64,000 nt of DNA from contig JAUIJC010000009.1 of assembly GCA_030431525.1 (NCBI GenBank), positions 1-64,000 on the forward strand, in the 5' to 3' direction. The position numbers were made by a program, and so were the translations under genes. How positions within the stretch are numbered: position 1 is the stretch's first letter; the number at the start of each line of letters is the position of its first letter. The DNA is from Bacteroidia bacterium. Lineage in GTDB: Bacteria; Bacteroidota; Bacteroidia; Cytophagales; JAAEPT01. Below are positions 13,240-14,346 of this stretch, in pieces. The notes below the pieces were generated by a model. It made no database searches. It had not been told where the DNA came from and saw nothing but the letters and a program-made list of their open reading frames with translations.

Positions 13240-14346
13240 TCAATGGGCGGTTCGCCCACCTAATTTTTGGAATTCATAGACCAAAGTCAGGTTGAATGCC
13301 TCGCAGACATACTCCAAATGGAAAAAACGGTTGGCCGCCATTCGGTTAATTAGAGGATTTCCAAATACGGAAAGGAAGGCTGCAGAGAACCACGAGAACC
13401 GACGTAAATCATCCGAGCTGGGAAGCTCAGAAGGGAGCAATTCCCAACTGCCAGTCAGCCGAAAGAAGGCCGTGGAAAGAAGCAATTCCTCTATCTTGTT
13501 GTTAGCCTTCGGCCAAAACGCCTGAATATCCTTGGCCAGCTTTTCTTTCAAGGGAACATGGCCCAAGGTATTTCCAGTTCCGAAAAGGCGCGCCAAATGG
13601 TATAAAACAATGGCCGTATTCGGATAGGAAGGCGAAATATGGAATGGACGATGAAAGTAGTCACCCTGTTCAATCACCTTGGAAATCAAGGTCATGGTTG
13701 CCTGACCGAATTCGTCGTAGGGGCGGACCTGTGTGTCCGCCTCTTGGGCTGTTGGGCAGACACACGGGTCTGCCCCTACAAACAGCAACATCAAGTTTGC
13801 TTGGGCGCACACATCAAACTCAATGGGCATTTTCACCCCAAACCAAGTAGAATACGCCTGAATCTTCCTGTATTCCTTGGGCGCGGTCGTATTCCAAAGA
13901 TGAACGCCATTGGCGTGATTCCTTAGACGCTCCTGCAACCACTCCAAATCACATTCATTTCCAAAGGAAAGCATCACCAAAGCAGTCACATCAATATCAT
14001 CAGGGAGAATGAACTTCTGAGTCTTATGCATGAAGCGTCCATTCGGAAAGGGCATCGGCTCTGGCTTATTCCGATAAAAATTGAACAAGGGCACCCCATC
14101 TCGACTCTCATACCGAGAATAGTTAGCGTGCACTCCGTCCCGAATCTGCTTCAATAAAACCCTCTCCCCATCATCCATCAACGGCTCCAATTGCTGAAGC
14201 ATAAACAGAATAGACGCACTGAAAAAAATGTTGTCATCCTCCCGTGCGATGGGCAACAGAAAATGCCTGCGCTGCGAGGGAAACATTCCCTTGGAATAGC
14301 ATTCATCTTCCCGTTGAACCTGTAAGGAGGCAATTTTTTCAAGCAT
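13240..14346 (-). CDS. Hypothetical protein carrying an in-frame REP insertion
   Basis: 368 aa, no signal peptide. The sequence is helical and rich in aromatic residues. Segments such as NIFFSASILFMLQQLEPLMD, DDIDVTALVMLSFG, YPNTAIVLYHLARLFGTGN and IEELLLSTAFFRLTG resemble the repeated helix pairs of alpha/alpha-toroid proteins (terpene-cyclase or glycosidase-like scaffolds), but no family can be named. Residues 190-210 are encoded exactly by a 63-bp palindrome of the REP type and give VGADPCVCP...RPY, an obvious insert. The rest of the frame remains open. Function unknown; transcribed toward ilvD. Confidence 0.6.
   Translation of the reverse strand: MLEKIASLQVQREDECYSKGMFPSQRRHFLLPIAREDDNIFFSASILFMLQQLEPLMDDGERVLLKQIRDGVHANYSRYESRDGVPLFNFYRNKPEPMPFPNGRFMHKTQKFILPDDIDVTALVMLSFGNECDLEWLQERLRNHANGVHLWNTTAPKEYRKIQAYSTWFGVKMPIEFDVCAQANLMLLFVGADPCVCPTAQEADTQVRPYDEFGQATMTLISKVIEQGDYFHRPFHISPSYPNTAIVLYHLARLFGTGNTLGHVPLKEKLAKDIQAFWPKANNKIEELLLSTAFFRLTGSWELLPSELPSSDDLRRFSWFSAAFLSVFGNPLINRMAANRFFHLEYVCEAFNLTLVYEFQKLGGRTAH
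13717..13779. repeat. REP/BIME-type palindrome inside a coding sequence
   Basis: 63 bp bounded by GTAGGGGC and GCCCCTAC, with the two halves GTAGGGGCGGACCTGTG... and ...CACACGGGTCTGCCCCTAC. The length is exactly 21 codons and it lies wholly inside the frame of the 13240-14346 gene without a stop. It is related in design to the GTAGAGAC elements at 25758 and 63832. Confidence 0.85.

Follow-up and report, generated by a model that had tools for sequence, protein, structure and literature searches.

Repetitive extragenic palindromic (REP) sequences with a GTAG tag lie mostly between genes, with a minority inside them; in-gene dimers or groups encode 20–30 amino acids, and placement in loops or linkers has been proposed (consulted part of PMC3733652, BMC Genomics 2013). 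The same part lists GTAG repeats for Proteobacteria, Cyanobacteria, Chloroflexi, and the PVC group, and CGTC repeats for Bacteroidetes, and it gives CGTC as the end of the palindromic element sequences of Rickettsia conorii. Rickettsia palindromic elements (RPEs) are palindromes of ~150 bp that lie in frame in protein genes (review PMC10969869, consulted part). REP-inserted transposases have been linked to Bacteroidetes, TnpA-REP subclass 2.4 is abundant in Cyanobacteria and Bacteroidetes, and in-frame REPs inside the transposase are a published trait of this subclass (consulted part of PMC6006769, BMC Genomics 2018). The element analyzed here is a 63-bp REP doublet inside a protein gene of a Bacteroidia bacterium (Cytophagales; assembly GCA_030431525.1, contig JAUIJC010000009.1, of which the first 64,000 nucleotides form the window). 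Very probably, a mobile REP doublet of the GTAG superfamily recently entered this conserved gene, with replacement or loss of 21 bp in an inter-helix loop, a net gain of 42 bp, an open frame, and a floppy 21-residue loop as the outcome.

The element at 13717–13779 starts with GTAGGGGC and ends with GCCCCTAC, and a 13-base spacer separates its two inverted 25-base arms. Each arm has GTAG at its foot and continues into a hairpin, GGGCRGAC...GTCYGCCC, the arrangement of the GTAG REP family. Folded as DNA, the element reached −22.9 kcal/mol, whereas its shuffles averaged −11.0 (z −5.3), and folded as RNA −46.7 kcal/mol (z −7.3), with 0 of 200 shuffles as good in either case; the palindrome is far beyond chance. 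The minus-strand reading gives 21 stop-free codons with the residues VGADPCVCPTAQEADTQVRPY, codons 190–210 of the open reading frame (ORF) 13240–14346. The coordinates, the 63-bp length, the absence of stops, and the residue numbers reported in the initial annotation of the window were all correct on recheck, and the REP or bacterial interspersed mosaic element (BIME) type that it named was borne out by the inverted GTAG hairpins and by the genome-wide arm matches described below.

The host protein had matches in 9 of 59 genomes and in 86 of 390 genomes of the order (its own genome counted in both); a contig scan with the protein returned no relatives. The 36 orthologues with returned loci were aligned, from among 85 other matching genomes of the order; L043, which is the second half of the gene of L041, was excluded. 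All 36 (23–42% identical) lacked the element and were collinear with the window protein on both sides of it, and all had 7 residues of unvarying length at its site (e.g., YKHELPL in L068). The net gain is 14 residues (42 bp), not 21. The initial annotation had claimed that the element adds 21 residues, and had expected an otherwise collinear alignment with a 21-residue gap: the in-frame, lineage-specific insertion between collinear flanks was found, but the gap was not clean, since the 7 orthologous residues are missing from the window protein. The 21 bp were either removed by the insertion itself or lost separately.

No Pfam or NCBIfam family was found in the host protein above the cut-off. 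An AlphaFold model from a 37-row alignment had a mean predicted local distance difference test score (pLDDT) of 85.7 and a predicted TM-score (pTM) of 0.89, and its sole segment of three or more residues with a pLDDT under 50 was residues 193–202, between helices 179–190 and 212–227. Foldseek gave ten matches with E ≤ 0.001, all of them drimenol/drimenyl-diphosphate synthase entries (TM-score over the query 0.53–0.59, 12–14% identity), which makes a class II terpene-cyclase-like fold likely for the modelled protein; a profile search of solved sequences reached the same synthase only at E 0.22.

The genome that holds the window (G000, 4,236,503 bases) was scanned with the 25-base arm at up to 3 mismatches, which gave 70 matches against 0 for the reversed-pattern control. 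The strict form, GTAGGGGC-N30..60-GCCCCTAC, occurred at 11 places, each seen on both strands. Clustering of arms in the fetched stretches at up to 5 mismatches brought 76 arms to 49 places (L005, L009, L015, L024, and L034 were left out beforehand as overlaps of other own-genome loci), and 24 of these, the window copy included, were complete doublets of 59–78 bp. Tens of copies, often as inverted dimers, are what is expected of a GTAG REP family, as is a mostly extragenic location: judged by ORF context, 47 of the 49 places were intergenic or at gene edges. A copy was taken as well inside a gene when its ORF was 150 aa or longer and extended 60 codons or more on each side of it, which left only two: the window copy, C19:13717, with 189 codons ahead of it and 159 following, and C32:80522, with 297 and 149. 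ORFs running off the end of a locus were not counted; two copies fell under this, C15:7878 and C25:68446, each close to a predicted start. Since 86% of the window is covered by ORFs of 100 aa or more, random insertion would be expected to place most REP copies in genes; it appears that in-gene copies were mostly removed by selection or avoided. Both arms were perfect in 5 of the 24 doublets, among them the two in-gene copies, which fits recent arrival.

The initial annotation had also considered the length and content of the element specially suited to protein coding. This did not hold for the family: only 5 of the 24 doublets had a length divisible by three, ~55% of their six frames were open (one phase is usually stopped by the TAG of GTAG), and ~10% of the doublet-frame combinations were open as well as a multiple of three. 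Most copies are also outside genes. A family length tuned to codons was rejected; an in-frame survivor is to be expected once selection has acted on random hits, and nothing suggests coding tuning.

Table 1 Positions of the REP doublet, its host gene, and the second in-gene copy (window numbering unless a contig is named)
Feature	Position	Strand	Basis
REP doublet, two inverted GTAG-tagged hairpins, 63 bp	13717..13779		Arm matches, DNA and RNA folding
Left REP arm, GTAG foot and hairpin	13717..13741	+	0 mismatches to the 25-base pattern
Right REP arm, inverted	13755..13779	-	0 mismatches to the 25-base pattern
Host gene, 368 aa, element = residues 190–210	13240..14346	-	ORF, Pfam search, structure model, Foldseek
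Codons 116–121, DDIDVT (orthologues DDxDDT or DDxDDS)	13984..14001	-	Range computed from ORF start 14346
Second in-gene copy, 61 bp	C32:80522-80582 (= L023:1501-1561)		Arm scan and ORF context

The second in-gene copy lies between an HTTM domain (11–267) and a VKGC lumenal domain (319–463) of a 466-aa protein. Its frame differs from that of the window copy and reads RRGGPVCPP..., and it directly adjoins a different palindrome, TTAGACCTGACAGGTTTTGGAAACCTGTCAGGTCTAA, which is likewise read in frame. Nineteen homologues were aligned (L124–L142; none of the 24 possible loci was dropped, the remaining matches having no locus), and the linker was longer than in the six closest (L124–L129) and of similar length to that in some distant ones (L134, L136).

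The arm, searched with at most one mismatch, had a patchy distribution in the order: 11 of 390 genomes carried it, the own genome included. An association with a REP-associated tyrosine transposase gene was found in six related genomes: REPs lay on both sides of a Y1_Tnp gene in G076, G117, G142, and G209, and beside as well as within it in G002 and G128. The genes of G209 and G128 were interrupted by a stop, and the G076 protein scored 76.5 bits against the NCBIfam REP-associated tyrosine transposase, just under the cut-off of 80. In G128, G002, G068, and G098 (two genes), the transposase itself contained a GTAGGGGC-type pair or close variant, which directly followed the HUH motif, kept the frame, and coded for VGADxxVCP or similar, then GEHxGSPL or similar. 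Listed by locus, such in-frame pairs, with peptides of this kind, lie in the loop behind the PNHFH motif at L160, L161, L162, L163, and L169, all from other genomes of this order, with two more cases at L251 (Nitrospinota) and L271 (Sumerlaeota). REPs that flank their cognate transposase and lie in frame inside it, as in subclass 2.4, are present in genomes other than the own one. In a transposase survey of the phylum, 197 of 395 genomes had a match.

Beyond the order, the exact 25-base arm was found in at least 119 contigs from many phyla, judged by record titles; among the matches listed were Bacteroidota, Clostridia, Chloroflexi, Cyanobacteria, Nitrospinota, Deltaproteobacteria, and Omnitrophota. 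In the fetched stretches of the 119 listed contigs, REPs were inside a transposase in L251 and L271, a transposase was within 400 bp in three, and 114 had neither. Of the 147 arms in these contigs, 14 were mid-ORF, with an ORF length of 200 aa or more and 60 or more codons to either side; a single gene of L218 accounts for six of the 14, and several of the other ORFs appear spurious. In L218:431-3935, a cyanobacterial contig (Shackletoniella), the six REP arms follow each other at 69-bp steps, in frame in a 1167-aa ORF that by eye resembles alpha-mannosidase.

As to the course of events, the 63-bp doublet would have entered the conserved gene fairly recently, and 21 bp in the loop between two helices would have been replaced by it or lost alongside it. 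A REP-associated tyrosine transposase (TnpA-REP) would have moved the element as single-stranded DNA, selection would have removed most other in-gene copies, and the host protein would still be made and working, with a floppy 21-residue loop that makes it 14 residues longer. The element is most likely without function in the protein, and the insertion is probably neutral.

Several observations weigh against this account. In the own genome, no match to the REP-adjacent transposase was obtained at E ≤ 0.001, and its three Y1_Tnp genes had no GTAGGGGC REP within 400 bp on either side, so these genes were rejected as neighbors of the family. C19:81230, one of the three, has a different palindrome on its flanks. 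With no transposase match there, mobilization in this genome is inferred; the transposase may have been lost, be missing from the draft assembly, or have been replaced by another of the three Y1_Tnp genes. No close relative with an empty site was found (G000 was the only genome of its genus drawn, and same-family G001 had no gene match), and for this reason the insertion and the loss of seven codons are not demonstrable as one event. Finally, the fifth position of the DDxDDT motif is V instead of D in the window protein only, which could mean weaker constraint.

This last point also bears on a rival explanation, that the gene has only just become a pseudogene, or that constraint on it is relaxed, and that its open frame merely reflects a recent insertion. 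It is consistent with the perfect arms, which leave little time elapsed, with the replacement of D120, and with departures from 8 of 41 near-invariant columns. The closest orthologue, L068, however, departs from such columns about as often (8 of 46), D116, D117, and D119 are kept, and the 368 codons contain no stop or frameshift and remain collinear to the C-terminal region. The doublet statistics, moreover, imply that only ~10% of random insertions into genes would be stop-free and keep the frame (~18% if any net length is possible). Catalysis by DxDD/DxDTT motifs relies on the middle Asp as the acid, and V at the fifth position therefore need not inactivate the host protein. We regard loss or relaxation of constraint as possible, though unlikely.

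It is more doubtful still that the element was kept for a function, whether as a hairpin of the message that slows transcription or translation or as a loop with a new function. The RNA hairpin is very strong, and related REPs recur in frame at one transposase loop in several genomes, but most copies are intergenic, the other in-gene copy uses a different frame, and the modelled loop has no confident structure. A further idea, which we rate as slightly less probable again, is that master copies in frame inside the transposase gene keep the REP family coding-compatible: the loop after the HUH motif, VGADxxVCP, is in the same frame as the window copy, and REPs spread from such copies would be preselected to pass through genes as harmless flexible loops. 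If true, this would be a small exon-like system adding loops to proteins. An ancient, conserved place of the 21 residues in the protein, with a merely REP-like appearance, is practically excluded: the segment is in frame and stop-free, but none of the 36 aligned orthologues has it, distant ones with the same residues being what the initial annotation had named as refuting an insertion, and the genome has copies of its DNA at 48 other places, so a conserved domain part was rejected.

Other repeats were observed near the REPs of the own genome. At C39:93, C54:165, C70:81222, C64:11670, and C57:5293, ATTGGGGC or a further variant replaces GTAGGGGC at one end, and these copies have a common outer sequence, TTAATGCAACAGC or TTAAAGCAACAGC, which suggests a longer composite repeat. 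The sequence CCCACCTCTGTCCTCCCC was present in 11 of 321 loci, all of them from the own genome (L012, L047, L051, L053, L063, L065, and five others), as an inverted pair ~106 bp apart in five of the 11 (closer in L065); it is a second repeat, resembling miniature inverted-repeat transposable elements, and adjoins REPs. The palindrome flanking C19:81230 (L002, on the contig of the window) is imperfect, CGTAGGGC...GCCCTACG, and also occurs elsewhere, e.g., beside the REP at C18:57138; it looks like another REP-type family, perhaps with its own transposase. A neighboring gene contains a type IX secretion system (T9SS) sorting domain, in keeping with the Bacteroidota character of the genome.

The insertion of the REP doublet is a well-resolved case in a conserved enzyme-like gene of a Bacteroidota-type genome, in which the alignment shows seven residues exchanged for twenty-one, and the second in-gene copy of the same genome allows comparison. 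It may serve studies of what happens to the target on REP insertion and of the frequency at which proteins tolerate such loops. A literature text search for arm and peptide strings retrieved, among the matches listed, only a DNA 8-mer, with nothing relevant by title.

In comparison with RPEs, the window element is also a palindrome in frame inside a protein gene. It differs in its length of 63 bp, in having GTAG and not CGTC at both ends, and in belonging to an overwhelmingly intergenic family (2 of 49 places well inside genes), whereas a largely genic, in-frame family is expected of RPEs. The REP-adjacent transposases found here appear from their sequences to fit the description of TnpA-REP subclass 2.4, as far as the consulted part of PMC6006769 gives it, with agreement in taxonomy at a broad level, in the NH[FI]H motif, and in the in-frame REPs; unlike the REPs described there, the window copy has an unrelated gene as its host, and no such transposase came up in its own genome. 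With the intragenic GTAG REP dimers of PMC3733652 (consulted part), the element shares its GTAG-tagged inverted hairpins, the intergenic bias of its family, and a coding length in the range of 20–30 residues, yet it is in a Bacteroidota-type genome, where that list has CGTC repeats. The type of event is rare but already published, both as in-frame REP pairs of 20–30 codons and as in-frame REPs in transposases, and the present case is an added instance.
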